This document shows, piece by piece, positions 2,505-39,556 of a stretch of DNA of 64,000 nt. Made by a program: the position numbers and the translations under genes. Source of the stretch: Acidobacteriota bacterium (lineage in GTDB: Bacteria > Acidobacteriota > Terriglobia > Terriglobales > Acidobacteriaceae); contig JACPYL010000025.1 in NCBI GenBank assembly GCA_016196065.1, positions 186,001-250,000 of the forward strand, read 5' to 3'. The notes under the pieces are model-generated. The model had not been told where the DNA came from. It saw nothing but the letters and a program-made list of their open reading frames with translations, and made no database searches. The stretch's first letter is position 1. Each line of letters begins with the position of its first letter.

Positions 2505-4226
2505 CTACTCCACGACAAAAGTTGCCGTTGGGTCGACAGTCTGCTTGGAAATGTTGTCGTTCACCTTGATCTCGATCTTATAAATACCGGGCTGCAAGTT
2601 CGCCGCTGCCAGGGTCTTCTGCAGCGTGACTTGCTCGCCGACATTGCCCATGGTTTCGGTCGATTCAACGGTGTGGATGACTGCCTTGTTGGCAGAGTCC
2701 GTCACGTTGTATTCGATCGTCGCCGAGGGCTTGTGCGTCTTCTCGTCAACCCCAAGATTGTAAACCTGCATCCAGAAATTCAGCTTCTGGTTACGCTTGA
2801 ACGAAATCGGCTTGCCATCCGAGGGAGCCACGCGGGGACGCACTTTCGTAGCGCCAATGACAAAGTTGCCGGTACCCACATTCTTGGCGGCGACAGGCTC
2901 CATCTGATCGGCCACGATCAGCGATGAGTTGCTCAGGCGGTCATCGCTGAAGTCAGGAACCGGAAGAGCTCGGCTCCATGTTCCCGTACGATCGCCGTTC
3001 ACGTCCTTTACCACGATATCCAGGCGATAACGTCCAGGCTTGAGCGGCAAGGCCTTCCAGTACACGGAAGAATTTTCCGCAGTGCGAGGCAGCAATTCAG
3101 CGGGGACATCGACCTGCACTGTGTCTTCGAACGTCTGGGCGATACGGCCCGTCAGCGTCGTCACGCGACCGAAAATATTCACGGTACCGCGTTCGATGCC
3201 TTCCTTGTTCTGGAACGTGACATCGCGATTCTTGATCTGCACAGTGACTGGGACAAGAACTGTGTCACTGGTTACTTTGACGAAGTCAGCGCGCACATCA
3301 AAGGGCATCGGGTTCAGCACAACTTTGTGCGTCACTAACTCGTTCTCGAGATCCTTGAACTTGATGGCAGGAGCCTTGCTCAACGCGGCGAACTGTTCCA
3401 GCCGATCAAACTGCTTGGTCTGAATATCTTTATTGAACGGCGACGTCCCAAGCCGCTCCATACCCCCGCCCGTAAAACGACTGGCCTTGCTGGACATTCC
3501 CATCTGTTCGTAGAGGGTAAGACCACCGTTCGGCGTATAGAGCAGGGCATCTTTTTCCGAGCGATCGATCGTCATGTGGTAGTCGCCGCACATGCAGGTA
3601 TCCACAAACTCGATGATCACTTCCTGTCCAATGCCTTCCAGGTAGCGATAGCGCCATTGTTCAAACGGGAAGGTGGAGGTAGAGCCGCCGCCTTCTTCCA
3701 TGGGACGCTCATACGTACCACCCGAAGGATGAGATTCAATCTCATCTGCCGGTCCGAACACGATGTACATGCGGCCGCGATCGGTCTTCCAGCCGGGGAT
3801 ACCAGCGGGAAAATGTTCGTTGGCGTAAGCGATACGCCGGTAGTGCTCTTCTTTGAATTCGTTTTCGGCAGTGTCCGGCGTTGGATCGCGGCGCTGCCAG
3901 AACGACTCGATGAAGTTCTCGCGCTCTTCATCGTTCGAAAGCTGTTTGAAAGCCGATCGTTCTTCGTCGGTGATGATCCAGGCTACGTCCTGGTCCAACC
4001 AGATCTTGTCGCGGTGGCTCAACTCTGCGCGCAGCGACTTGGAATTTTTCTTTTTCTCTTTTTGAGTCAGAGGGCGCTTGAGCGGATCGGTCTGGCCGTC
4101 GGGTGACGCCTGGGCATCCGCTTCACCTTTGTCCTTCTCCTGCGCAAAAGCAATGCTCCCCAACCCCAGTACAGCACCCACCATCAAAACAGCCAGAGAG
4201 CACCTGCGAAAACGTGCGGAAAGCAT
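2505..4226 (-). CDS. GWxTD domain-containing secreted protein
   Basis: The product has 573 residues from the ATG at 4226, where GAGGTAGG lies 8 bases upstream and a clear signal peptide starts (MLSARFRRCSLAVLMVGAVL, cleavage after AFAQ). A charged, Lys-rich linker follows, then the GWxTD region (about residues 60-210) with the signature GWKTDRGRMYIVFGPADE and an upstream WQRRDPTP motif. The C-terminal half looks like two beta-sandwich domains. The GWxTD family is found mainly in Acidobacteriota, Bacteroidota and related phyla, and its function is unknown. It is the first gene of a two-gene unit with the CarboxypepD_reg protein. Confidence 0.85.
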   Translation of the reverse strand: MLSARFRRCSLAVLMVGAVLGLGSIAFAQEKDKGEADAQASPDGQTDPLKRPLTQKEKKKNSKSLRAELSHRDKIWLDQDVAWIITDEERSAFKQLSNDEERENFIESFWQRRDPTPDTAENEFKEEHYRRIAYANEHFPAGIPGWKTDRGRMYIVFGPADEIESHPSGGTYERPMEEGGGSTSTFPFEQWRYRYLEGIGQEVIIEFVDTCMCGDYHMTIDRSEKDALLYTPNGGLTLYEQMGMSSKASRFTGGGMERLGTSPFNKDIQTKQFDRLEQFAALSKAPAIKFKDLENELVTHKVVLNPMPFDVRADFVKVTSDTVLVPVTVQIKNRDVTFQNKEGIERGTVNIFGRVTTLTGRIAQTFEDTVQVDVPAELLPRTAENSSVYWKALPLKPGRYRLDIVVKDVNGDRTGTWSRALPVPDFSDDRLSNSSLIVADQMEPVAAKNVGTGNFVIGATKVRPRVAPSDGKPISFKRNQKLNFWMQVYNLGVDEKTHKPSATIEYNVTDSANKAVIHTVESTETMGNVGEQVTLQKTLAAANLQPGIYKIEIKVNDNISKQTVDPTATFVVE

Positions 4227-4633
4227 AGACGGGCCTACCTCGCGAGAACAGCTATTGAGTGATTCTATGTTCATTGGATACATGAAGGCAAGCAAAAGTG
4301 GCCTGACAGAAAAGAATTCCTTAATGAAATCCTGACCCTAGATGCCTTAAGAATCCGTGACTTGCGGGCTTTCGCACGTCCGGGATGAAGACCCGGACTG
4401 TTCAGTTATGGTCAGGCTATAATGTTCGGTTGTTAGGTTTCCCTCTGGCGCGACAATTGAGCAGCAACAGCCAAGGCCTGCACCGGGAACTTTCTCCCTC
4501 GTAGGAACGTAACTGTTTACAGCGCAACGATTGCGGCCTTCGACATTCCCTTAACCGGGATATCGAGCAGGGGCAATCCGAGACGATAGGCAGAGTCGTC
4601 GCCGGCATTGAAAACCTGACCGCAGGACGGTTC
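4227..4633. other. Divergent intergenic region with a candidate promoter
   Basis: These 407 bases separate the GWxTD gene (minus) from the adaptor gene (plus) and hold no convincing gene. A perfect TATAAT at 4418-4423 (plus strand) may serve the adaptor-ATPase operon, though its -35 region (GGACTG) is poor. A small inverted repeat (GTCCGGG/ACCCGGAC) lies at about 4378-4398. Confidence 0.4.
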
Positions 4634-6019
4634 ATGAAGACTTGGAAAAAAGTACTGATCGGAATCGGCGTTGCGCTGGTTCTTGTGATCATCGTCAGTG
4701 TGACGGTGTACCAGAGCCGCAAGAATCTCGTCACCGTACAAACGGGCAAGGCGCAGAAGCAGAACCTGGCTTCGGTAGTAAGCGCCTCGGGCGAGATCAA
4801 ACCGAAGACCTACGTCAACATTGGCGCCAATGCCTTTGGCAAGATCGTCAAGCTCCATGTCAGGGAAGGCGACCACGTAAAGAAAGGCCAATTGCTGGCA
4901 CAACTGGAAAACGTGCAGTCGTCTGCTGACGTGAACGCGATGCGTGCGTCCGTGCAGGCTGCTGAAACCGATTCGGTTGCGTCCGACGCTGCGCTGAAGA
5001 CTGCGATGGCCGATCTCAACCGCGCCAAGTCCGACGCGGAGCGCGCCAAACTCGACTATGATCGTGCCACCGGCCTCTATCAGGACAAGCTCATCGCCAA
5101 GCAGGACTACGACGCCCGTAAAGCCACCTGGGAGCAGGCGGACGCGGGTATGGCTCAGGCGGTGGCTCGGATTGCCCAGGCAAAGGCGCAAAAGGATTCG
5201 GCCGAAAAGCGGATCACGCAAAATAGTGCGAACCTCACGCGCGTTTCCGACGTACTACGAAAGACGACTTACGAGGCTCCCTACGACGGGATTATTACCA
5301 ATCTCCCGGTACGGGAAGGCGAGACCGTAGTCATCGGAATTCAGAATTCGCCAGGCAGCACGCTGATGACGCTTGCGGACATGTCGGTGATTACTTCGGA
5401 GGTCAAGGTGGACGAGACTGATATCGTCAACGTGCACCTCGGCCAACCTGCTGAAGTCACCATCGACGCCATTCCCCGCAAGACTTTCCATGGCACAGTC
5501 ACCGAGATCGGCAACAATGCCATCGTCCGTTCAACCGGCGTGGCGACGTCGCAACAGAGTTCGACCAGCCAGGAAGCAAAAGATTTCAAAGTGGTCGTTA
5601 CCCTGAACGATCCACCGGCCGACCTGCGTCCCGGACTCTCCTCGACTGCAAAAATCACGACGGCGACTCGGCCGAGCGTGCTCAGCGTGCCGATCCAGGC
5701 GCTGACCGTTCGCAACCGCGCCGACCTGGAAAACAAAGCTGGCGAGAAAGGTTCGGTGAAGGCCGCAAGTGTGCCCACCGACGCATCCAAGGCAAAAGAC
5801 GAAGTGCAGGGCGTCTTCGTCATCCGGAATAAGAAAGCGGAGTTCGTACCGGTGGATACCGGGATCAGCGGAACAACCGATATCGAGGTCACCAAGGGGC
5901 TGCAAGAAAGCGACGAAGTCATCACGGGCAGTTACAAGGTGCTACGCACGTTGAAGCCGGGGACGACGGTCAAGGTCGATAACTCGGCTCCGAAGAAGGA
6001 AGTAGAAAGCAGTTCGTAA
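4634..6019 (+). CDS. Periplasmic adaptor subunit of an efflux system (MacA/HlyD family)
   Basis: The product has 461 residues. One N-terminal membrane anchor (about 7-26) is followed by a split biotinyl-lipoyl domain (GEIKPKTYVNIGANAFGKIV and, later, TTYEAPYDGIITNLPVREGE). Between the halves is a long alpha-helical coiled-coil hairpin (about 95-200), and beta-barrel and membrane-proximal domains come last. Adaptors of this family join an inner-membrane ABC permease or RND pump to an outer-membrane channel. AGGA precedes the ATG. The next gene is a MacB-type ATPase, so the pair fits a MacAB-like exporter, but no permease follows. Confidence 0.85.
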   Translation: MKTWKKVLIGIGVALVLVIIVSVTVYQSRKNLVTVQTGKAQKQNLASVVSASGEIKPKTYVNIGANAFGKIVKLHVREGDHVKKGQLLAQLENVQSSADVNAMRASVQAAETDSVASDAALKTAMADLNRAKSDAERAKLDYDRATGLYQDKLIAKQDYDARKATWEQADAGMAQAVARIAQAKAQKDSAEKRITQNSANLTRVSDVLRKTTYEAPYDGIITNLPVREGETVVIGIQNSPGSTLMTLADMSVITSEVKVDETDIVNVHLGQPAEVTIDAIPRKTFHGTVTEIGNNAIVRSTGVATSQQSSTSQEAKDFKVVVTLNDPPADLRPGLSSTAKITTATRPSVLSVPIQALTVRNRADLENKAGEKGSVKAASVPTDASKAKDEVQGVFVIRNKKAEFVPVDTGISGTTDIEVTKGLQESDEVITGSYKVLRTLKPGTTVKVDNSAPKKEVESSS

Positions 6020-29668: not shown

Positions 29669-30451
29669 TTACCAGGTGTACTGCAAGTCATCTTGGAATT
29701 GCCCAGTTGCAACCATGTTGCGAAGCTGATCCAAGCTCTCTGCGGATCGAGAACCAGCGCCGCCCCAAAGGAATTGCATGTTGTTCTTCGTGTCAACCTT
29801 GAACAGGAGCAAGCAGTAACCGTGCCCTATTCCACCCACCTCGTAGTGGACAAACCATTCGTCACCTCGGACTCCCGCAAAAACGAGACGCCTATGCGGC
29901 AGGCTTGCGTCAATAATGACGTCCGCAACCTGAAATTTCTGCCCGGGATTAGCCAGCGCAAACGCGGGCTGACCGGTTATCTGGGCAAATGCCTCCTTCA
30001 CGGAGGCAGGCATGTCGGCCGTCTTCGTGACAACCGTGAACAAGCCGTCGAGGATGTGCTGTTTGTCGGCTGGTGACAACTGCTTGCGGAACTCTTGGCC
30101 GGTTGGAAGGCAGACCTTAACGCTCCTGTCCGACCATTTCTTTGTTTCGGAATCGTATGTGTCGGATTCGCCCAACGTTGTTCCATACCACGCGATGTAA
30201 GTGTTACCCGTGGTCTTGCAGTAACAGGGACAATTCTCGTCCTTCTCTACCCCAGCCTCTGACAAAGAATTTGGAAGGCGTCCATTTGTTCGTTTGAACT
30301 CTTCAACTTTCGAGACGACTGCGTTGCCCAGGTCCCGCTTCGACGGTCCGCAACTATTTGCTGCCAAGACAAACACTAGTGCAAACAGATAGACCGAAGC
30401 GTTTGAACTCGATCGCCCGAAGATTACATGAATTGATCTCGGAGGAGTCAT
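29669..30451 (-). CDS. Lipoprotein-like protein of unknown function between ftsI and murE
   Basis: The product has 260 residues. An N-terminal hydrophobic stretch (about 19-33, SVYLFALVFVLAANSC) ends in a possible lipidation Cys. A segment resembling type IV pilin or pseudopilin bodies follows (VVSKVEEFKRTNGRLPNSLSEAGV, then CPCYC). The C-terminal half is beta-rich (VIIDASLPHRRLVFAGVRGDEW). No family is recognised. The ATG overlaps the ftsI stop by four bases (ATGA), yet the region is visibly more A/T-rich (about 50% GC in sampled lines) than neighbouring dcw genes (about 60%), suggesting a later insertion. A 99-base gap separates it from murE. Confidence 0.7.
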   Translation of the reverse strand: MTPPRSIHVIFGRSSSNASVYLFALVFVLAANSCGPSKRDLGNAVVSKVEEFKRTNGRLPNSLSEAGVEKDENCPCYCKTTGNTYIAWYGTTLGESDTYDSETKKWSDRSVKVCLPTGQEFRKQLSPADKQHILDGLFTVVTKTADMPASVKEAFAQITGQPAFALANPGQKFQVADVIIDASLPHRRLVFAGVRGDEWFVHYEVGGIGHGYCLLLFKVDTKNNMQFLWGGAGSRSAESLDQLRNMVATGQFQDDLQYTW

Positions 30452-32613
30452 CTCCCAAATCGCACCATCACCCTCGACCCCGCGGCTACCTTGGCGCCGG
30501 GCACAGGCGCCTGCTCGCGTGCCGTTCCGCTACCTATCGCGTCGAGATCGAGGCCAGCATCTTGTGCGGTTTCGACCGCCGCACGAACATTCTTCCCGAG
30601 AAATGAAGGCACCTCGATACCACCCTCTTCCACATCCAGTACTAGTGTTCCGTTCGTCGGCAATTTCTGTTCAGGCGCCGGCGCGGTGTTCGCAGTTCCC
30701 GCCGATGGACTTATGGGAGCGGCCGGTACTTTCTGCCTCCTCGTGGCAGGTACTACTTGTGCCGCAATCATCGCTGACTTCGACTGTGCAGGATCAGGCG
30801 CCGTTTCGCCAGCAGCATCGGCCAAGTCGAGAGTAGACCCGAGATGATCGGGCGAAGCTTCGTCGAGATCTTTGTCCGGAACGTTGCGACGCGCGAGCAA
30901 TACCTGGCGGCTGGCCGGTATTTCAACGTCATGGGGAACGTGCAGGTATTCCAGGACCTGCTGCGTCACGCGCTGGAAGACGGGAGCGGAGATTTGGCCG
31001 CCCTGGTGCAGCCCTACGGCAGAATCGAGAATCACGGCTACAGAGATCTTGGGATCGTTAACCGGGGCAAATCCAGCAAAGGATGCAACGTATTTAGTCT
31101 TGGAGTAGGAGTGCGTCCCGGGGTCGACTTTTTGCCCGGTGCCGGTCTTGCCAGCGGAACTGTAACCTTCGAGGATGGCCTTGCGTCCGGTCCCATGCAG
31201 CACAACGCCTTGCAGCATCTGCCGCATTTGGGCGGCGGTGAGGGACGATATCACGCGCCGGTTTCCAGTGGATTGGAACGAGATGGTCTGGGGCGTGGCT
31301 TGCGGCCCGACTGTACCCGCTACGATTCTGGGCGCGGTCCAGACTCCGTCATTGGCGATGGTCGAGATCAAAGCAATCAACTGCAGGGGAGAGATGCCGA
31401 TCTCCTGTCCCATCGAGATTGCCCCGATGGAAACCTTCGACCAGCGGTCCACTGGTTTCGTCATCCCCCTAGTTTCGCCGGGAAGCTCGATGCCGGTCTG
31501 CTGTCCGAAGCCGAAGGCGCGAATGTATTTGTATAAGCGGTCATCTCCGAGGCGAAGTGCGACCTTGATCGCGCCAACGTTACTCGACTCGGCGATGATG
31601 TCGGATACCGACAACACGCCGTGTTGTTTGCTATCGCGGATGCGCAGGCCGTTGATGACGATGGCACCTGCCCGGCAATCGAAAAGCTCGTCAGGATGAG
31701 TGACCTTTTCTTCCAGCCCGGCAGAAATGGTGACGATCTTGAACGCGGACCCGGGCTCGTAAATGTCGCTCACGGCGCGGTCTTTCAGAGCCTCGATCGT
31801 GATTTCCTTGCGCAGGTTGGGATTGAATGTGGGGCGGTTTGCCAGCGCGAGGATCTCGCCGGTATGCGGATTCTGCACAATCACGGTGCCAGCCGCTGCG
31901 TGAGTATCCTCCATCGCCTTTTCCAGTTCGCGTTCCGCGATGTACTGGATGTTCTGATCGACCGTCAGGACGACGTTATTTCCCGCTTCGGGCTGCTTCT
32001 CGACGCTGGAGAACCATTTGTTGTGGGCGTCAACGGAGATCATGAGCCGGCCAGGCTTGCCTTGCAGTTCGGTGTTAAATTGCCGCTCCAGCCCGCTGAG
32101 GCCCTGATCGTCGGTTCCCACGTATCCCAGCATCTGTGCGCCCAGTTCACGCTTGGGATAGAAACGCTTGGGCTCCTTCTGAAAATGGATGCCTTGCAGG
32201 TTCATTCCCTTGATGCGCTCGATAACGTCGGCGTCAGCCTTGCGGGCGACCCAGCAAAATGTTTTGGGAGCCCGGCAGTCGGCCAGCAAGACGCGGGGAT
32301 CAACTCGGGTGATTCGGGCAATCAGGCTGATGGTGTTGGCGAGATCGGGAATCTCGCTGGGGACTGCAAATGCAGAGTCCACCTGGATCGACATCGCCAG
32401 CTCGCGCCCAGCGCGGTCAAAGATAATGCCGCGTTTCGGTGAGAGATCAAAACTGCGCTGCTGCTGATGTTGCGCCCGCTGCTCGAAATCTCCGTAGCGG
32501 AAGACCTGAAGATAGACCAGGCGAACGCAGATCGCCACCAGCCACAAACAGAGGAGTCCGGTTAGGGCGTAGAGCCTGAACTTGGCGGTGGTAGAAGTTT
32601 TTTCCGCGGCCAC
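30448..32613 (-). CDS. ftsI: Septal peptidoglycan transpeptidase FtsI (PBP3) with PASTA domain
   Basis: The product has 721 residues (GTG start with AGGA upstream). It has one membrane helix (about 14-33) and a PBP dimerisation region (RGIIFDRAGRELAMSI). The transpeptidase active-site motifs are SAFK (EPGSAFKIVTISAG), SSN (AESSNVGAIKVALR) and KTG (SAGKTGTGQKVD). A Pro/Ala-rich linker leads to a single C-terminal PASTA domain (last 60 residues, EVPSFLGKNVRAAVETAQDAG). A C-terminal PASTA is usual in Gram-positive PBPs and also seen in Acidobacteriota. It cross-links septal peptidoglycan with FtsW. Confidence 0.95.
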   Translation of the reverse strand: MAAEKTSTTAKFRLYALTGLLCLWLVAICVRLVYLQVFRYGDFEQRAQHQQQRSFDLSPKRGIIFDRAGRELAMSIQVDSAFAVPSEIPDLANTISLIARITRVDPRVLLADCRAPKTFCWVARKADADVIERIKGMNLQGIHFQKEPKRFYPKRELGAQMLGYVGTDDQGLSGLERQFNTELQGKPGRLMISVDAHNKWFSSVEKQPEAGNNVVLTVDQNIQYIAERELEKAMEDTHAAAGTVIVQNPHTGEILALANRPTFNPNLRKEITIEALKDRAVSDIYEPGSAFKIVTISAGLEEKVTHPDELFDCRAGAIVINGLRIRDSKQHGVLSVSDIIAESSNVGAIKVALRLGDDRLYKYIRAFGFGQQTGIELPGETRGMTKPVDRWSKVSIGAISMGQEIGISPLQLIALISTIANDGVWTAPRIVAGTVGPQATPQTISFQSTGNRRVISSLTAAQMRQMLQGVVLHGTGRKAILEGYSSAGKTGTGQKVDPGTHSYSKTKYVASFAGFAPVNDPKISVAVILDSAVGLHQGGQISAPVFQRVTQQVLEYLHVPHDVEIPASRQVLLARRNVPDKDLDEASPDHLGSTLDLADAAGETAPDPAQSKSAMIAAQVVPATRRQKVPAAPISPSAGTANTAPAPEQKLPTNGTLVLDVEEGGIEVPSFLGKNVRAAVETAQDAGLDLDAIGSGTAREQAPVPGAKVAAGSRVMVRFGR

Positions 32614-32633
32614 TGCTGTTTCCTAGATAGCTT

Positions 32634-32750
32634 CGGCGGCCCTGTCTGGGAGCCGCCGTTTAGCAACCCCTGAAGGGGCTGGGTCATTAGAACGTCTGCG
32701 TCATCGCTCACGCGATGCCCTGATCAACCGGACGGACAAGAGCGTCCGTC
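32634..32750. repeat. Four consecutive hairpins between ftsL and ftsI
   Basis: The hairpins are CGGCGGC/GCCGCCG (32634-32658), CCCC/GGGG (32667-32678), CATCGC/GCGATG (32702-32717) and GACGGAC/GTCCGTC (32731-32750). None has a T-run. The cluster fills nearly the whole gap, so the dcw message would be strongly folded here. They resemble REP-like intergenic units. Confidence 0.65.
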
Positions 32751-32756
32751 TTACAC

Positions 32757-33215
32757 TTACCTTGCCGAAACGACCGAGACCGGCGTCATGCTCGCCATGA
32801 CCGGCGCACTCGTGTCCGCGTTGCCATCCAGCTGCATGACTTGTCCTGGCTGCGGAGACTGTAGTCCCAATTTACGAGCCATAACGTCGATACGCCCGGG
32901 GTCGCGTAGCGATGCATCTTCCAGTCGCAGTGCCCGGTTCATTTCCACTAAACCGTCGCGTTGCGTGCGCAGCGCTTCGATCTGGTAGCCGTATTCGATG
33001 GCGCGGAAGTGCTGCAGGGCATAACCCATGACCAACGCGAACAGAATGCACAGGGCGATGCCGAACTGCTTCATCTCGCGCCCGCGCCGCGGATCTTCCA
33101 CCTTCACGAGACGTGAGTTGTCGATGGTCTTGCGGAAATAAATTTCCGGCGTTCCCAGCCAGCAGGATTTCCGCTGGCGCGCATTTACATTGCTCATTGC
33201 CATCGCTGCACTCAT
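32757..33215 (-). CDS. ftsL: Cell division protein FtsL
   Basis: The product has 152 residues. A cytoplasmic basic N-terminus of about 48 residues, one membrane helix (about 50-66, QFGIALCILFALVMGYA) and a leucine-zipper-like periplasmic helix (about 70-115, IEYGYQIEALRTQRDGLVEMN) give the bitopic FtsL topology. The conserved C-terminal ARKLGLQSPQPGQVM is typical of FtsL/DivIC-like proteins. It forms a complex with FtsB and FtsQ that activates FtsWI. In-frame ATGs at 33203 and 33197 are alternative starts. It begins four bases after the stop of a small upstream ORF. Confidence 0.88.
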   Translation of the reverse strand: MSAAMAMSNVNARQRKSCWLGTPEIYFRKTIDNSRLVKVEDPRRGREMKQFGIALCILFALVMGYALQHFRAIEYGYQIEALRTQRDGLVEMNRALRLEDASLRDPGRIDVMARKLGLQSPQPGQVMQLDGNADTSAPVMASMTPVSVVSAR

Positions 33216-33219
33216 GTTT

Positions 33220-33390
33220 TTATGCCACTCCGCGAAGCTCGTTGTCGAAGCCTACGCCGTCCTGAACGGATACAAACCAGGGTTCCATTTCCGCCATCAA
33301 CTCCGCATCCGCTTGCGCCTGCATTTGTGTTCTCAATTCAGCGCGTTCGACGGTTGCGATCAGATCTTCGATTAAGGTTCCAGTCAGCAT
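33220..33390 (-). CDS. Small ORF between rsmH and ftsL, unknown function
   Basis: The product has 56 residues from the ATG at 33390. It is acidic and helical (LIEDLIATVERAELRTQMQA, then LMAEMEPWFVSVQ). Its stop lies four bases before the ftsL ATG, as in a coupled operon. The same frame stays open upstream to a TTG at 33603, overlapping the end of rsmH. That extension reads NCRTPRCGDCKACRVKDSV, a possible zinc-knuckle, so the true product could be up to 127 residues. No family is recognised. Confidence 0.5.
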   Translation of the reverse strand: MLTGTLIEDLIATVERAELRTQMQAQADAELMAEMEPWFVSVQDGVGFDNELRGVA

Positions 33391-33547
33391 TTCTTTTTCC
33401 AGTTTTGTTTCCGGACTCGGCCTTGTTTTATTTTCTTTGTGGCCGATTCGGAAATACTCCACCACAGAATCTTTGACCCGGCACGCCTTGCAGTCACCGC
33501 ACCGGGGAGTCCGGCAGTTTCTCCGGACGAACTCAAACTTGTTGGCG

Positions 33548-34537
33548 CTATATCCTCTCTGCCACGCGCATTTTTGCGCTGCGGGAGCGCGGATTGCGCT
33601 CAATTTCTTCTTCAGATGCTGTCAGCGGCTTCTTGGTTAGCAAACGAAAGTACTCGTCTTTGCCGCCGCGCAATGCATCTTTTACGATCCGATCTTCGAG
33701 CGAGTGAAAGCTGATCACGACCAGCCTTCCGCCCGGCTTCAGCACCCTGGGAACAGCCTCCAGTAGTGCCTTCAGATCGTCCAGTTCACGGTTTACGAAT
33801 ATTCGGAGAGCTTGAAAAGTTCTGGTCGCCGGATGAATCCGCTCATGTTTCATTGACCGGGCCGCGGCTGATACCACGTCGACTAGTTGCTTCGTCGTCG
33901 ATATCGGCCGCGACCGGACAATGGCTCTGGCGATTCTCCGCGACCTCCTTTCCTCACCGAATTCGTAAATCACATCGGCAAGCTCGCGCTCGTCGAGGTG
34001 GTTTACCACTTGTTCGGCGGTGTCGCCCGACATGGTGTTCATCCTCATGTCAAGGGGTCCATCCGCCTGAAAGCTAAATCCGCGCGTTGCGTCTCCCAGT
34101 TGCAGACTGCTCACGCCTAAGTCCGCCATCAGGCCGTTTAAGGAGTTGGGAGCGATTCGCTCACCGACCTCCGCAAACGATCCATGAATCAGCGTCACTG
34201 TCGGCCAGTCGGAATCTTGCTGTTGGTCGTTAGTCGTTGGTCGCTCGGGAACCGATTCCCCAACGACCAACGACTGACGACCAACGACTGGCGCGAGCCT
34301 TATCCGCGCCGCACTCAGCGCTGCCGGATCCTTATCGAAGCCAATCAAATGTCCCGCTGCGCCGAGGCGTTTTGCGATTTCCAAACTGTGCCCGCCCAGG
34401 CCCACCGTGGCATCCAAAAAGGTTCGGCCCCGCTGTATGGCTAAAAAATCGATCGCTTCTTTTAAAAGAACCGGAACGTGTCCAACCGCTCCACGTCCAT
34501 CCCGCTCGGGGATGTCTTGTCCAAAATCCGTTTCCAC
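33548..34537 (-). CDS. rsmH: 16S rRNA (cytosine(1402)-N(4))-methyltransferase RsmH
   Basis: The product has 329 residues, GTG start. It methylates C1402 of 16S rRNA using SAM. It has HVPVLLKEAIDFL, the SAM motif FLDATVGLGGHSLEI, GFDKDPAAL, and the C-terminal RTFQALRIFVNRELDDL and GGRLVVISFHSLEDRIVK. Residues 84-106 lie in place of a short loop between the SAM motifs and IHGSFAEV. They are encoded by a dispersed inverted repeat and are Gln/Asp/Arg-rich. The start overlaps the mraZ stop (TAGTG). Formerly named MraW. Confidence 0.95.
   Translation of the reverse strand: METDFGQDIPERDGRGAVGHVPVLLKEAIDFLAIQRGRTFLDATVGLGGHSLEIAKRLGAAGHLIGFDKDPAALSAARIRLAPVVGRQSLVVGESVPERPTTNDQQQDSDWPTVTLIHGSFAEVGERIAPNSLNGLMADLGVSSLQLGDATRGFSFQADGPLDMRMNTMSGDTAEQVVNHLDERELADVIYEFGEERRSRRIARAIVRSRPISTTKQLVDVVSAAARSMKHERIHPATRTFQALRIFVNRELDDLKALLEAVPRVLKPGGRLVVISFHSLEDRIVKDALRGGKDEYFRLLTKKPLTASEEEIERNPRSRSAKMRVAERI
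34222..34288. repeat. Inverted repeat inserted in frame within rsmH
   Basis: GTTGGTCGTTAGTCGTTGGT (34222-34243) faces inverted CAACGACCAACGACTGACGA units (34261-34288) around a short CTCGGGAACCGATTCC core. It is the same unit as the repeat at 19988-20088. Here it is translated as RsmH residues 84-106. Confidence 0.8.
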
Positions 34538-34977
34538 TAGATGCCCAATTCGTCGAGCGTCTTGGTGTCATCATCCGTGAAGGCCTGCTCCTCAATTTCC
34601 TTGCGGAACGCTTCCATGTTCCGGACCTCCAGGTAGGTCAGATTGCCGAGCACTGCTACTTCACCGCGTACCTGCGCCGACTCACGCAGGATCTGCGGGA
34701 TCAGCAGGCGCCCCTGCCCGTCCATCTCTACGACCTGCCCGTAATAATTCGTGCGATTGAGAAATTTCTTCTTCGTCGGATTGAAAGTGGATAGCGACGC
34801 CAGCTTCTGCTCGATCCGCTCCCATTCCTCGAAGGGATACACCTGAGCAACAGTCCCATCGAGACTGGTGATGTAAAATTTCTGCGCATATTTCTCGTCG
34901 ATCACCCGCTTGAATTCCGACGGGACCTTCAAACGTCCCTTTTCGTCGACTCGAGTTGGGTGATTTCCGCGAAACAT
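34537..34977 (-). CDS. mraZ: Transcriptional regulator MraZ
   Basis: The product has 146 residues with two AbrB-like SpoVT halves: residues about 1-50 (FRGNHPTRVDEKGRLKVPSE) and about 75-120 (VVEMDGQGRLLIPQILRE). Both carry the DxKGR/DGQGR motif. MraZ binds direct repeats at its own promoter and controls the dcw operon. It is the first gene of the cluster. Candidate MraZ boxes lie upstream at 35159-35182. A weak AGGA precedes the ATG. Confidence 0.96.
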   Translation of the reverse strand: MFRGNHPTRVDEKGRLKVPSEFKRVIDEKYAQKFYITSLDGTVAQVYPFEEWERIEQKLASLSTFNPTKKKFLNRTNYYGQVVEMDGQGRLLIPQILRESAQVRGEVAVLGNLTYLEVRNMEAFRKEIEEQAFTDDDTKTLDELGI

Positions 34978-35182: not shown

Positions 35183-35210
35183 ATCCTACGCCTAACTGCC
35201 TTATTGTCAA
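35183..35210 (-). promoter_or_regulatory. Sigma70-type promoter of the dcw operon
   Basis: A perfect -35 TTGACA (35205-35210) and a -10 TAGGAT (35183-35188) are spaced by 16 bases on the minus strand, giving a start near 35176 and a 5' leader of about 200 bases before mraZ. No gene is seen in 35211-35491 between this and the divergent promoter. Confidence 0.75.
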
Positions 35211-35491
35211 CAAGAAAGTTTCAGCTTGAGACGCACGTAAGTGCCTGCGAGGCCAAACCGCTAGAGTTTGTAGTTGATTAAGTCGGTGACCACTAGGGGT
35301 GGGGTTTACGACTGTGGTTCTGGAAAAGCTATGTGCCTTGATGCGAGTGGTTTGGGCCGCTTCTCCTGTGGAAATTCCTTAATGTCGGGCGCTGTCACTC
35401 GGTTCCGGCGACTAGCTAGTGGCTCGAAGCCAGAAGCTCGTAGCCAATTACGAAATTAATGGCGTCGTTTTGACGAATCGAAACATCTGAT

Positions 35492-35521
35492 TTGACACAT
35501 GCTTCCCGATCTCCATAGAAT
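35492..35521 (+). promoter_or_regulatory. Sigma70-type promoter of the sulfur-assimilation operon
   Basis: TTGACA (35492-35497) and TAGAAT (35516-35521) are spaced by 18 bases on the plus strand. The start site would be near 35528, producing a leader of about 185 bases that contains the leader peptide and terminator described next. Confidence 0.7.
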
Positions 35522-35558
35522 CCGGTTCACGATGTCACGGCATTCCTCTATCTCAAGC

Positions 35559-35612
35559 ATGTGTTGTTGTTGCGTCATGGTGTCTTCTGGCGCAGGGGGA
35601 TTGCTGACTTAA
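35559..35612 (+). CDS. Cysteine-rich leader peptide (attenuator uORF)
   Basis: The 17-codon frame ATG TGT TGT TGT TGC ... TAA encodes MCCCCVMVSSGAGGLLT. Four consecutive Cys codons directly after the start, upstream of a terminator and a sulfite-reductase operon, are what an amino-acid-sensing attenuator for cysteine would need. No Shine-Dalgarno sequence is evident before the ATG and the predicted start site is about 30 bases upstream, so initiation efficiency is uncertain. Poly-cysteine leader ORFs controlling sulfur genes are known in mycobacteria, where they are leaderless. This one is in an unrelated lineage. Confidence 0.75.
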   Translation: MCCCCVMVSSGAGGLLT

Positions 35613-35682
35613 TCTAGATTCAAAATCGGCATACATAAACCCACCGCCAGCGAGGCTTAGCTGGCGGTGGGTTTTTCTTTTT
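35571..35682 (+). promoter_or_regulatory. Transcription attenuator: competing hairpins 1:2, 2:3 and 3:4
   Basis: Segment 1 (35571-35577, the last Cys codon onward) can pair with 35588-35594 (7 bp including one G-U). Segment 2 (35587-35597, CTGGCGCAGGG) can instead pair with 35640-35650 in segment 3: six pairs CTGGCG/CGCCAG, a 2x2 internal loop, then GGG/CCC. Segments 3 and 4 form the terminator stem. A ribosome stalled on the Cys codons would cover segment 1, free segment 2 and block the terminator. A ribosome reaching the stop at 35612 would cover segment 2 and let the terminator form. Confidence 0.75.
35638..35682 (+). terminator. Intrinsic terminator in the leader of the sulfite reductase operon
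   Basis: A perfect 14-bp stem (35638-35651 with 35660-35673, core CCCACCGCCAGC) with an 8-base loop is followed by TTTTT, C, TTTTT ending at 35682. It lies only 31 bases before the reductase ATG and downstream of its promoter, so it must act conditionally. Confidence 0.92.
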
Positions 35683-35713
35683 GCCGAAATCGCGGAAATA
35701 TCCGGCGGAGAAC

Positions 35714-37411
35714 ATGGCGACCAAAGAAACCAAAGCGCAACGCGTAGAACGATTGAAGAGGGAAAAGAATCCGTGGGAAGCCCTCGAAGAGATTCGCGGA
35801 TTCGCCCGGGTGGGCTTCCCGGCCATTCCACCCGAATGGCTCGGAACCTACATGCGCTGGTGGGGCGTCTATACCCAGGGCGATGGGGCCGGCGTCCTCG
35901 GCGGTGCGAATGGCGAGGGCAAGGCGCTTCCCTACTTCATGGTGCGGATTCGCATCCCGAACGGCATTTTGCGTTCGAGCCAGTTGCGTGCCATCGCCGA
36001 TCTGTCACGACGCTTTGGACGAGGCGTTGCCGACATCACTGTCCGGCAGAATTTCCAGTTGCACTGGGTAACTCCGGAAGCGTTGCCAGAAGTGCTGGAA
36101 ACTCTGCAGCAGCAGGGCCTGACCACGCTTGGCGCGTGCGGTGACGTAATCCGCAACATTACCGGCTGCCCAGTTGCCGGGCTGGATGCCGATGAAATCT
36201 GCGATCCATCGCCATTGGCGCTCGAAGCATCGCGACTGCTGGCCGGCAACGCTGAGTTCTACAACCTTCCGCGCAAATTCAAAGTTTCGCTGACCGGGTG
36301 CCGCGACTGGTGCTCGTATCCCGAAATCAACGACGTAGGGCTGACGGCAGTCACGCGGCAGTTTCGCGGGCAGACTGAGACAGGCTTTTCCTTGCGAGTT
36401 GCGGGCGGCCTGTCTACCGATCCGCACCTGGCGGTTCGCCTCAATGCGTTTGTACGATGGAACCAGGTCATCGATACGATTCGCGGCGTTGCAGAACTCT
36501 TCCGCACTGCCGACGGCTTACGCGAACACCGCGAACGGGCGCGACTGAAATTCCTATTTCTGCGCGAAGGTTGGACGGCCGAGACTTTTCAAACAGAACT
36601 GGAACGCGTCGTTGGCTTTAAGTTCGATCCTGCGGAGCAGGAACTTGCGCCGCACGATATCTATCGCGACCACATCGGGATTCATCCGCAGAAACAGGAA
36701 GGCCTGTCGTTCGTGGGTGCAGCAGTAGTCCGCGGACGGGTCAGTGCGGATCAGTTGCAGGCCGTCGCCGAACTTTCTGAACGGTTTGGCTCAGGCGACC
36801 TGCGCACCACCGTGATGCAGAACCTGCTGGTCGTGAACGTTCCCCACCACAATACTTCATCGCTGGCGAAGGAATTGACCGATCTCGGATTTCCAGTACA
36901 GGCTTCGCCCTTCGTCCGGGGAGCGATCGCGTGCAGTGGAACCGAATTCTGCAAACTGGCAATTACCGAGACGAAAGGATTCTCACGCTGGCTGACCGAA
37001 GAACTCGACGACCGACTGCCGGGATTCGATCAGGAACTGAAGCTCCACGTCACCGGCTGCCCCAACAGTTGCGGGCAACATTGGATTGCCGACATCGGCC
37101 TCGAAGGAAAGAAGATCAAATCAAACGGTGCGCTCGTTGACGCCTACTACTTCTGCCTGGGCGGATCGGTAGGCGCGTTGCAATCCATTGCACGTCCCGT
37201 TGGATATCGCTGCTCGGCGCAGGAAGTTCCGGAGGCTATTGAGCGGTTGCTGCGGCAATATCGCGTTACACGCGAGCCGGGAGAAAATCTGCGCCGCTAT
37301 TTTGCGCGGCACAGCAACGAAGAACTTCGACAATTTCTGGCCGGACAGCAAGTCGACCCCGTAGAGCGGGATTTGCCGGCCGCTGCGGCGCCGCACACGG
37401 TGGAAGGTTAA
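35714..37411 (+). CDS. Ferredoxin-type sulfite/nitrite reductase (siroheme and [4Fe-4S])
   Basis: The product has 565 residues from the ATG at 35714, with GGAG just upstream. It has two ferredoxin-like and two siroheme half-domains. The cluster ligands are Cys 407 and 413 (CSGTEFC) and Cys 449 and 453 (GCPNSCGQHW). The N-terminal half contains ITVRQNFQLHWV, and the first repeat has GCRDWCSYPEI. It catalyses six-electron reduction of sulfite to sulfide (or nitrite to ammonia) in the cytoplasm. Next to siroheme genes and cysH, and behind a Cys leader peptide, sulfite is the likely substrate. Confidence 0.92.
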   Translation: MATKETKAQRVERLKREKNPWEALEEIRGFARVGFPAIPPEWLGTYMRWWGVYTQGDGAGVLGGANGEGKALPYFMVRIRIPNGILRSSQLRAIADLSRRFGRGVADITVRQNFQLHWVTPEALPEVLETLQQQGLTTLGACGDVIRNITGCPVAGLDADEICDPSPLALEASRLLAGNAEFYNLPRKFKVSLTGCRDWCSYPEINDVGLTAVTRQFRGQTETGFSLRVAGGLSTDPHLAVRLNAFVRWNQVIDTIRGVAELFRTADGLREHRERARLKFLFLREGWTAETFQTELERVVGFKFDPAEQELAPHDIYRDHIGIHPQKQEGLSFVGAAVVRGRVSADQLQAVAELSERFGSGDLRTTVMQNLLVVNVPHHNTSSLAKELTDLGFPVQASPFVRGAIACSGTEFCKLAITETKGFSRWLTEELDDRLPGFDQELKLHVTGCPNSCGQHWIADIGLEGKKIKSNGALVDAYYFCLGGSVGALQSIARPVGYRCSAQEVPEAIERLLRQYRVTREPGENLRRYFARHSNEELRQFLAGQQVDPVERDLPAAAAPHTVEG

Positions 37412-37414
37412 GGA

Positions 37415-38047
37415 ATGAGCAACGCATCTCTATTTCCGATGTTCCTCAAGCTTGAGGGACGCACCTGCCTGGTCCTGGGAGCAGGCAGCGTTGGGGAGCA
37501 GAAGATTCGCAGCCTGTTTGAGTGCGGAGCGCATATCTGCGTCGTCGCAACCTGGGCCACAGGCGCGGTGAAACAGTGGGCACAGCAACAGAAGCTGACA
37601 TTGATCGAGCGTGAATACGAACCTGGCGATCTTGACGATGCATACCTGGTGATTGCAGCTACCTCGGACGTTGCCGTGAACCATGCCATCTACCGTGAAG
37701 CACAGGCGCGTGGAATCCTGTGCAACGTAGTCGACGATCCGCCGTATTGCGACTTCTACTATGGCGCGCTGGTCCGTCGCGGACACCTGCAGATCTCAAT
37801 CTCCACCAATGGCCTGAGTCCCGCGCTCGCGCAACGGATCCGCAAACAATTCGAGGAAGACTTTCCACCGGTCTATGGGCAGTGGCTGGAAGAACTGGGC
37901 TGCAAGCGGGAAGCGTTGTTCCGCGCGGGAGGAGATCCGGAGGAGCGGAAGCAAACCCTACACCGGCTGGCAACGCACGAAGCGTTCTTGGAATTTGAGA
38001 GCAGTCAACTTACATCGATCTCTGAATCAGGAAAGGAAGTTTTGTGA
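37415..38047 (+). CDS. Precorrin-2 dehydrogenase / sirohydrochlorin ferrochelatase (CysG N-domain, Met8 type)
   Basis: The product has 210 residues. It has an NAD-binding Rossmann motif VLGAGSVGEQKIRSLFECG, the family-typical LVIAATSDVAVNHAIYREA, CNVVDDPPYCDFYYGALVRRGHLQISISTNGLSPALA, and a helical C-terminus. It oxidises precorrin-2 and inserts iron to make siroheme, the cofactor of the reductase encoded just upstream. The gene starts three bases after the reductase stop and overlaps cobA by four bases. Confidence 0.92.
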   Translation: MSNASLFPMFLKLEGRTCLVLGAGSVGEQKIRSLFECGAHICVVATWATGAVKQWAQQQKLTLIEREYEPGDLDDAYLVIAATSDVAVNHAIYREAQARGILCNVVDDPPYCDFYYGALVRRGHLQISISTNGLSPALAQRIRKQFEEDFPPVYGQWLEELGCKREALFRAGGDPEERKQTLHRLATHEAFLEFESSQLTSISESGKEVL

Positions 38048-38838
38048 AGGGAAAAGTCTATCTGGTTGGAGCGGGCCCCGGCGATCCGGAGTTGCTCACG
38101 CTCAAAGCATTGCGGTTGCTGCGTCAAGCGGACGCAGTCCTGCACGACGATCTAGTATCGCCTGAGATCCTGACACTCGTATCCAGAAATGCCCAACTTC
38201 ACGACGTGGGGAAGCGCGCCGGAAGGAAGAGCACGCATCAGGAAGAAATCCATTTTCTGATGATTGAACTCGCCCGGCAGGGACTTCAGGTCGTGCGCTT
38301 GAAGGGTGGCGATCCGCTGGTGTTCGGGCGCGCCGGAGAAGAAATGCAGGCGCTTCGACGCGCCGGGATCGAATTTGAAGTCGTGCCCGGCGTAACGTCG
38401 GCATTGGCAGCCGCGGCTTCGGTGGAGATTCCGCTAACGCTTCGCAAGACAGCTTCCTCGTTGCTGATCATGACCGGACAATTCGCCGACGACCGCGACG
38501 TTCCCGATTTGCGCCCGCTCATCGCGTCCGGCACGACGATCGCTTTGTATATGCCGGGATCGAATCCGCGAGCAACGGTCGAACAACTAGGCGCTGCGGG
38601 AATTCCGGTGCATACGCCTTGCGCCCTGATTTCACGAGCCAGTACGAAGGCACAACGAACCACAGTGACGACGCTCGAAAAACTGCCCTCCATCGGCGGG
38701 CATGCCAAGCCTGCTCTGCTGATTCTGGGTGACGTGGTTCGGCTCGCGAAACGTCAGCCGAATGTGTTCGAGACTCTTGGCTCGGAATTGATGCCAGCAC
38801 TCTCTGCTCCGGAACGCGCGGAGGCCAACCGTGCCTGA
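38044..38838 (+). CDS. cobA: Uroporphyrinogen-III C-methyltransferase
   Basis: The product has 264 residues, GTG start overlapping the previous stop (GTGA). SUMT motifs are VYLVGAGPGDPELLTLKAL, DDLVSPEIL, VVRLKGGDPLVFGRAGEE, GVTSALAAAASVEIPLTLR and ALYMPG. It makes precorrin-2 from uroporphyrinogen III with SAM, the first step to siroheme, complementing the preceding dehydrogenase/chelatase. Together they replace a fused CysG. Confidence 0.95.
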   Translation: MKGKVYLVGAGPGDPELLTLKALRLLRQADAVLHDDLVSPEILTLVSRNAQLHDVGKRAGRKSTHQEEIHFLMIELARQGLQVVRLKGGDPLVFGRAGEEMQALRRAGIEFEVVPGVTSALAAAASVEIPLTLRKTASSLLIMTGQFADDRDVPDLRPLIASGTTIALYMPGSNPRATVEQLGAAGIPVHTPCALISRASTKAQRTTVTTLEKLPSIGGHAKPALLILGDVVRLAKRQPNVFETLGSELMPALSAPERAEANRA

Positions 38839-39556
38839 TTTGAGCTGGTTGACCGTGACGCAGGCATTTGCCGAATCGTGGGGGGCCGAAGAAATCCTCG
38901 ATTGGGCGTTGCATCGCTTCGACGGCCAGATCGCGATGGCATCCGGCTTTGGCCCGGAAGGACTCACCCTCATTGACATGGCCGCCCGCCTGCGTCCGGA
39001 TATCCGTGTCTTCACAATCGACACCGGCGTACTGTTTCCGGAAACCTACGATCTCATGAAAAAGATCGAGCAACGGTACGGCATTCAAGTAGAACGAGTG
39101 CAGCCGAAGCTCAGCATCGAAGGGCAGGAACGCGAGCACGGCGCGGCACTCTGGCTCCGCACACCCGATCGTTGCTGCTACATGCGCAAGGTCGAGCCGT
39201 TGCGGGCGAAGCTTTCTACGCTTGGCGCATGGATCGCTGCCATTCGTCGCGACCAGACGCCCGACCGTGCGCACGCACAGAAAATCGAGTGGGACACCAA
39301 GTTCGGACTGGTAAAGATCAATCCACTCTGCGATTGGACCAACGATATGGTGTGGGATTACATCCGCGATAACGATATCCCATATAACCCGCTGCACGAC
39401 GAGGGATATCCGAGCATTGGCTGCGCTCCTTGCACGCGCCCGGTTGCAATCGGGGAAGACCCGCGCGCCGGCCGTTGGGCGGGATTCGCCAAGACCGAAT
39501 GCGGATTGCATCAACGTGTTCCGCTGCTGGGGGCGCTACCAGTAATTCAGGAGTAG
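38831..39556 (+). CDS. cysH: Phosphoadenylyl/adenylyl-sulfate reductase CysH
   Basis: The product has 241 residues, GTG start, overlapping cobA by 8 bases. The PP-loop-like ASGFGPEGLTLIDM, TIDTGVLFPETY and AIRRDQTPDRAHA are present. Cys 115-116 (RCCYMRK) and Cys 198 and 201 (GCAPC) form the [4Fe-4S] site found in APS-preferring reductases. The redox-active Cys 224 lies in TECGLH. It reduces APS to sulfite, feeding the reductase. It is the last gene of the operon; sulfate adenylyltransferase genes are not in the window. Confidence 0.94.
   Translation: MPDLSWLTVTQAFAESWGAEEILDWALHRFDGQIAMASGFGPEGLTLIDMAARLRPDIRVFTIDTGVLFPETYDLMKKIEQRYGIQVERVQPKLSIEGQEREHGAALWLRTPDRCCYMRKVEPLRAKLSTLGAWIAAIRRDQTPDRAHAQKIEWDTKFGLVKINPLCDWTNDMVWDYIRDNDIPYNPLHDEGYPSIGCAPCTRPVAIGEDPRAGRWAGFAKTECGLHQRVPLLGALPVIQE

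Follow-up and report, generated by a model that had tools for sequence, protein, structure and literature searches.

A very probable cysteine-sensing leader-peptide attenuator before a sulfate-assimilation operon in an acidobacterium

We analyzed a stretch of 64,000 nucleotides of acidobacterial DNA (the window), which covers positions 186001 to 250000 of contig C25 in a source genome of 5.5 Mb and 29 contigs. In front of a sulfate-assimilation operon in this window lies what is, judging from its sequence and that of its relatives, very probably a ribosome-mediated transcription attenuator that would gauge charged Cys-tRNA. The promoter, the leader open reading frame (ORF), the pairing segments, and the genes that follow are located as listed here.

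35492 to 35521, plus strand: sigma-70-type promoter, TTGACA-N18-TAGAAT, with 11 of 12 consensus matches; kept in the relative L163.
35532 to 35612, plus strand: leader ORF as proposed here, MSRHSSISSMCCCCVMVSSGAGGLLT and stop, probably leaderless, from the spacing between its ATG and the -10 element; similar in relatives.
35559 to 35561, plus strand: ATG named in an earlier reading, here an internal Met codon; not conserved in L163.
35562 to 35573, plus strand: putative sensor, the consecutive Cys codons TGT TGT TGT TGC, from the sequence and from Cys clusters in relatives.
35571 to 35577, plus strand: segment 1, which pairs with 35588 to 35594; 7 to 8 pairs also in G093, L163, L164, and L165.
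35587 to 35597, plus strand: segment 2 (CTGGCG and GGG), the 5' side of the antiterminator, from fold and alignment.
35602 to 35607, plus strand: 5' strand of the inner antiterminator stem, TGCTGA, just 5' of the leader stop codon, from the fold and counted in the alignment.
35626 to 35631, plus strand: 3' strand of the inner antiterminator stem, TCGGCA, from the fold and counted in the alignment.
35640 to 35650, plus strand: segment 3, common to antiterminator and terminator, from fold and alignment.
35637 to 35674, plus strand: intrinsic terminator hairpin, segments 3 and 4, from fold and covariation.
35675 to 35682, plus strand: T-rich terminator tract, from the sequence.
35714 to 37411, plus strand: nitrite/sulfite reductase family protein, the first gene of the operon, with NIR_SIR domains and all NCBIfam models below their cut-offs.
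37415 to 38047, plus strand: siroheme synthase N-terminal type (precorrin-2 dehydrogenase), TIGR01470 above cut-off.
38044 to 38838, plus strand: uroporphyrinogen-III C-methyltransferase (CobA), TIGR01469 and NF004790 above cut-off.
38831 to 39556, plus strand: CysH, a phosphoadenylyl- or adenylyl-sulfate reductase, NF002537, TIGR00434, and TIGR02055 above cut-off.

An earlier sequence-only reading of this DNA had proposed the promoter, which was confirmed, and a short poly-Cys ORF, which lay where that reading had put it, with ATG 35559 followed by TGT TGT TGT TGC and a stop codon TAA at 35610 to 35612. Twelve sense codons lie downstream of the Cys run. As the leader start, ATG 35559 (17 codons) was rejected in favor of ATG 35532, which is in frame with it, gives 26 codons, and stands 10 bases past the end of the -10 element. 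In an alignment with five near relatives, ATG 35559 was missing in L163, the named record that matches best, and ATG 35532 was kept in four (L163, L164, L165, and L167) and lost in L166. ATG 35532 is thus the likelier leader start on the sequence evidence. Because the -10 element ends 10 bases before it, the leader mRNA is probably leaderless, which would explain the absent Shine-Dalgarno sequence; that absence, noted in the earlier reading as its weak point, ceases to be a weakness if the leader is leaderless from 35532.

This spacing was common among the leaders. We used a promoter rule that asked for at least 8 of 12 consensus matches and allowed a spacing of 4 to 13 bases. Of 164 leader records (drawn from two overlapping sets, with duplicates kept), 107 had a -10 element that ended 6 to 13 bases upstream of an in-frame ATG, compared to 41 of 1959 other ATGs in the same regions; 101 of the 107 were spaced by 6 to 11 bases. 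Leaderless genes averaged 13.3% in three Acidobacteria genomes, as given in the available part of PMC3160421. The leader peptide had no NCBIfam match.

The terminator of the window (35637 to 35674) has 15 pairs and an 8-base loop and is followed by TTCTTTTT; its folding energy of -31.2 kcal/mol (z, -7.3) was reached by 0 of 200 shuffles. The antiterminator was the minimum-energy fold of 35585 to 35652 (-19.5 kcal/mol; z, -2.1; reached by 7 of 200 shuffles) and joins 35587-35592 to 35645-35650 and 35595-35597 to 35640-35642, with an inner stem between 35602-35607 and 35626-35631. Segment 1 pairs with segment 2 in the fold of 35562 to 35598 (-10.9 kcal/mol; z, -2.2; reached by 4 of 200 shuffles). 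The terminator and all three alternative pairings were therefore found in the window folds at the positions first suggested, and the antiterminator stood as drawn, except that its inner stem had been missed. In the window alone, the terminator is far beyond chance, and the two alternative pairings are only moderately so; that the antiterminator excludes the terminator and would be freed by a stalled ribosome is indicated by folding and covariation.

From this anatomy we infer where transcription starts, that the ribosome stalls, and that the operon responds to cysteine. Transcription would start on ATG 35532 or a few bases from it, and a 70S ribosome would initiate on the leaderless mRNA. When Cys-tRNA is scarce, the ribosome would stall on 35562 to 35573 and cover segment 1, leaving segment 2 free to pair, together with the inner stem, with segment 3; the terminator would then not form, and the sulfate-assimilation genes would be transcribed. 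When Cys-tRNA is plentiful, the ribosome would reach the stop codon at 35610 and mask the inner stem and part of segment 2, so that segments 3 and 4 would pair and transcription would end in the T tract near 35682. Without a translation start, pairing 1:2 would hide segment 2, giving termination by default.

The reductase gene has a GGAG at 35707 to 35710, 3 bases before its ATG and outside the terminator hairpin. This gene had been called a sulfite reductase, a name that the operon context supports (the N-terminal part of CysG, CobA, and CysH) but that the NCBIfam scores of the enzyme, below cut-off, do not; because CysH and siroheme genes are present in the operon, sulfite is the likely substrate. 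The four Cys codons thus precede CysH and siroheme genes, as a codon run for the end product of the operon. The best matches of the reductase among named records were labelled Acidobacteria gp1, Acidobacteriales, Terriglobia, Terriglobales, Acidobacteriaceae, and Candidatus Sulfotelmatobacter. Upstream, the window holds a divergent cell-division cluster on the minus strand (30448 to 34977; MraZ-like, RsmH-like, and FtsI-like, named by eye), with a promoter-like site at 35210 to 35183 on the same strand.

We looked for the Cys leader before related reductases in 200 genomes of the family. A reductase match was present in 131 of them, including the genome of the window, at 136 places, and 130 of these places were examined; the six left out (G137, G167, G053, G154, and the second places of G135 and G104) mostly start or end within the gene. 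Under a strict rule (roughly three Cys in a stretch of four codons, or four in alternation), a Cys-cluster leader was found at 98 of the 130 loci, among them the window and every one of the 29 best-scoring relatives, and this conservation suggests that a short ORF between promoter and first gene is translated. The same rule gave 9 of 130 on the reverse complement and a mean of 2.0 of 130 in mononucleotide shuffles; since these controls are above zero, a few of the 98 leaders may be chance. The other 32 loci comprised 10 with another ORF ending just upstream, 15 with a leader under a relaxed rule (which found 8 of 130 on the reverse complement), and 7 with neither, so that 17 of 130 loci had no Cys leader even under the relaxed rule, 10 of them being those where another ORF ends just upstream. 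Among named records, a set that overlaps the 130, a Cys leader preceded 69 of 79 reductase loci; L242 was left out for want of upstream sequence, and the ten misses include L186, whose record reaches just 62 bases upstream. Among relatives, the peptide was highly variable in its N-terminal part. Of 164 leaders, 163 were separated from the gene by a hairpin with a T tract (-31.2 to -7.2 kcal/mol), a count made with no shuffled control. The Cys codons and the pairing of 35587 to 35597, on whose conservation in relatives the sequence-only reading had staked its case, were both conserved. Three records labelled Methylomirabilota (L227, L230, and L235) carry reductases that are 63 to 66% identical and have no Cys leader under the strict rule; we read these as mislabelled bins or transfer.

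To describe covariation, 81 leaders were aligned. It is important to note that these were chosen by a GCCAG- or ACCGCC-type word in the terminator arm, and that CTGG, CTGAC, or CCGGC close to the stop codon of the leader served to locate segment 2. The conservation of CTGGC and its pairing with GCCAG are thus partly built in, and the covariation evidence therefore rests on the other pairs. In the antiterminator, 79.0% of cells were paired, compared to 31 to 44% when the strands were slid by 1 to 3 columns. Double-change cells numbered 43, against 22.5 in shuffles (0 of 500 as high), and pairs with a double change numbered 11, against 7.1; further pair types (24 against 23.6) were not above the shuffles. 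Some antiterminator pairs failed often among the 81 (36:65 in 72, 9:99 in 38, 10:98 in 26, and 16:92 in 21), and pair 10:98 occurred as U-A in 46, A-U in 8, and G-C in 1. For the terminator, 92.9% of cells were paired and double-change cells numbered 46, against 11.2 in shuffles. Both pairings covary in relatives, as had been proposed for checking; related sequences can surpass shuffles of this kind without structure.

Further comparisons addressed the segments separately. The clade of the window reads CTGGC as (t)CT-GGC, the clade of L066, L073, and L076 reads it as CTG-GC, and this difference in codon frame suggests that the RNA itself, and not the peptide alone, is under constraint. Against synonymous recoding, pairing 2:3 was beyond the mean in 107 of 142 leaders and among the best 5% in 32, with an average of -14.1 compared to -12.1 kcal/mol. 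When leaders were crossed with the terminator arms of other genomes, the result was weak (mean rank, 0.40), perhaps because the terminator arms are so alike. A protector hairpin between segments 1 and 2 was better than the shuffle mean in 74 of 81 leaders and among the best 5% in 28, L166 not being one of the 74; in 44 leaders the segment 1 arm stopped short of the first Cys codon, and in 37, the window among them, it ended inside or past that codon. In two members of a different family of the phylum, L319 and L320, the four segments were found by eye to have changed together, to CCGG, around an MCCC run (the variant lies around 1400 to 1640), compared to an aligned core with CTGG in segments 2 and 4 and CCAG in segment 3 and roughly half of the segments 1. 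Downstream, L319 encodes a CysM-like cysteine synthase and a JAB-domain protein, and L320 has similar-looking ORFs.

We then modelled a ribosome stalled on the second Cys codon, with segment 4 not yet made, using dinucleotide shuffles as the control; this model is independent of the GCCAG- and CTGG-type selection words. On average, the fraction of the 5' terminator arm predicted to pair upstream was 0.626 in the stalled state, compared to 0.465 in shuffles and 0.195 with the ribosome at the stop codon. The value exceeded the leader's own shuffle mean in 126 of 142 unique leaders, and at least half of the arm was paired in 120 of 142 when stalled, in 51 by shuffle means, and in 3 with the ribosome at the stop codon. 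The window itself gave 0.60 (0.56 in shuffles), and the relative L166 fell below its shuffles (0.35 compared to 0.40).

The same RNA frame was also found before other genes. A covariance model, R1, which begins shortly before segment 2, ends with the T tract, and leaves out the codon run, matched at E of ≤0.001 in 86 of 200 family genomes and in 19 of 396 phylum genomes, 8 of the latter outside the family (two of these, L319 and L320, were looked at). In the genome of the window, R1 hit nothing at E of ≤1 besides this locus and the palindrome on its opposite strand, among the 150 first-look candidates scored out of 1144; the wider regulon is thus seen in relatives and not in this organism. We took 40 further family hits, chosen by eye, of which L304 was the reductase again. 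By leader type, assigned by eye on composition with no null, the other 39 comprised 22 Cys leaders, 16 rich in Thr, Met, or Ile, and 1 branched-chain leader; L302 and L312 were typed from the first of two inspections only.

Scans of the downstream genes, in which the scanned gene was not always the first one and from which L280 and L284 were left out, showed that the codon type fits the pathway in most of the related leaders scanned. The Thr/Met/Ile-rich group is as follows.

L274 to L282, L288, L290, L293, L299, L305, L307, and L309: Thr/Met/Ile-rich leaders in the same RNA frame; 15 of 16 scanned (without L280).

All 15 of the scanned Thr/Met-type leaders precede aspartokinase (13) or homoserine dehydrogenase (2), and the single branched-chain-rich leader, GVLLLIGVSVVLLI in L306 (minus strand, about 4550 to 4740), precedes ilvD at 2749 to 4554. 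Among the Cys-type leaders, 15 of 21 scanned had a sulfur or cysteine gene downstream: a siroheme enzyme or CobA in 6, family 2A encapsulin or its cysteine desulfurase in 5, cysK in 2, cysD in 1, and a sulfate transporter in 1. The remaining 6 had a carbonic anhydrase-like protein (1, in L300), FadL-like outer-membrane proteins (2), or no telling match (3). The encapsulin or desulfurase genes follow Cys leaders in L289, L291, L295, L297, and L302, with a rhodanese as the first gene in L289 and L295, the two where it was scanned; this arrangement suggests that the encapsulin sulfur compartment is under cysteine control. The FadL/TodX-like proteins behind the Cys leaders of L298 and L313 possibly take up sulfur compounds. 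By the promoter rule, 13 of 39 R1 loci with a usable ORF (L304 in, L312 out) looked leaderless, a smaller share than in the reductase set.

Over the relatives, the comparative tests named in the sequence-only reading support attenuation. The anatomy, its conservation and covariation, and the matching of codons to pathways are all seen in the sequences compared. The selection effects and misses described above leave the odds of an attenuator unaffected, as they do not bear on the stall model, the outgroup leaders, or the swapping of sensor codons. We consider it fairly probable that much of the amino acid biosynthesis of Terriglobia-type acidobacteria (cysteine and sulfur uptake, the aspartate family, and the branched chain), including the encapsulin/cysteine desulfurase operon, is under one shared attenuator frame, often leaderless, that varies in its sensor codons alone, a lineage-specific counterpart of T-box or SAM-riboswitch regulons.

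Other explanations of the locus were weighed against this one. Cys-rich peptides can bind metals, and a Cys-rich small protein for redox or metal sensing could stand in front of an unrelated terminator that is constitutive or controlled by a protein. This is very unlikely, as Thr or branched-chain runs occupy the same RNA frame ahead of matching genes, the peptide differs greatly in its N-terminal part, and segment 2 is read in different codon frames. Riboswitches and T-boxes govern sulfur or cysteine genes in other bacteria, and one of these could stand before the operon. Across the whole window, however, no Rfam family attained its gathering score, and a search of 35450 to 35760 against Rfam at E up to 5 gave only mir-30 and rnk_pseudo, both below their gathering scores, so that no T-box or SAM riboswitch model matched and we give this explanation almost no weight. 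Hardly any weight is due either to a chance meeting of a TGT repeat and a lone terminator: TGYTGYTGYTGY does occur 54 times in the genome, compared to 43 for the reversed pattern, but the locus counts (98 of 130 and 69 of 79) already contradict chance, as do the controls and the covariation.

Slightly more credible than any of these, and still improbable, is a leader that acts on downstream translation. Leaderless poly-Cys ORFs of Mycobacterium smegmatis are said to govern translation downstream, in the available parts of PMC13236596 and PMC9031893. That type has no recognised intrinsic terminator, whereas here a hairpin and T tract precede the gene in 163 of 164 leaders and covary in the 81 aligned, the terminator of the window has a folding energy of -31.2 kcal/mol, and the GGAG of the reductase lies outside the hairpin. 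Transcription attenuation is thus the reading that we retain.

The classical attenuators of the thr, ilv, his, and trp operons of Proteobacteria combine a leader peptide, regulatory codons, and a terminator. Streptomyces lividans has leaderless Leu, Trp, and Ilv leaders, of which some are followed by Rho-independent terminators, and these resemble the present, probably leaderless element in leader peptide, regulatory codons, and terminator (PMC8079986, available part). Compared to the Proteobacteria and Streptomyces systems, the element described here would sense cysteine, belongs to an acidobacterial host, and uses one RNA frame with swapped codon runs. Cys leaders themselves are already known in Actinobacteria, and leaderless ones in mycobacteria, there without a recognised terminator in the parts of the sources available. 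Seliverstov (2005) described short ORFs with Cys runs upstream of cys or cbs genes in Actinobacteria, with no conserved terminators (PMC1262725, available part); these are alike in having runs of Cys codons within short upstream ORFs, but in Actinobacteria the Cys codons are close to the stop codon and terminator hairpins are reportedly absent, whereas here there is a terminator and 12 sense codons follow the run.

In mycobacteria, leaderless Cys-rich ORFs were reported by Shell (2015; PMC4633059, available part) and by Canestrari (2020), the latter as described in the available parts of the citing papers PMC13236596, PMC9031893, and PMC9094748, and the mechanism is termed translation attenuation in PMC13236596. 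These poly-Cys ORFs resemble the present leader, which by its promoter spacing is probably leaderless too, in being short, with contiguous Cys codons at the head of an operon and with ribosome speed on those codons as the proposed sensor. They are, in contrast, described as acting on translation, with no conserved terminator hairpin (Seliverstov 2005; PMC1262725, available part), as far as Canestrari (2020) is represented by the citing descriptions; here a terminator and an antiterminator occur, in another phylum. Earlier predictions do cover Acidobacteria. Premature terminators were predicted by Naville and Gautheret (2010), with almost none of the acidobacterial attenuators having an associated function (PMC2965389), and Korolev (2016) counted short leader genes, with leaders near the gene start and cysteine unmentioned (PMC4833913), each in the available part of the paper. 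Among the matches listed by our literature search, which covered the literature in part and mostly open papers, there was no worked-out Cys or other leader-peptide attenuator in Acidobacteria.

If the reading is true, cysteine-specific transcription attenuation by a full set of terminator and antiterminator would exist beyond Actinobacteria, in a phylum that is common in soil and little studied. Because the shared structure can be searched by a covariance model, the amino acid regulons of uncultured acidobacteria would become predictable from sequence. Moreover, the codon run would give a direct hint at the signal of an operon of unknown role, such as that of the FadL-like outer-membrane proteins behind Cys leaders.
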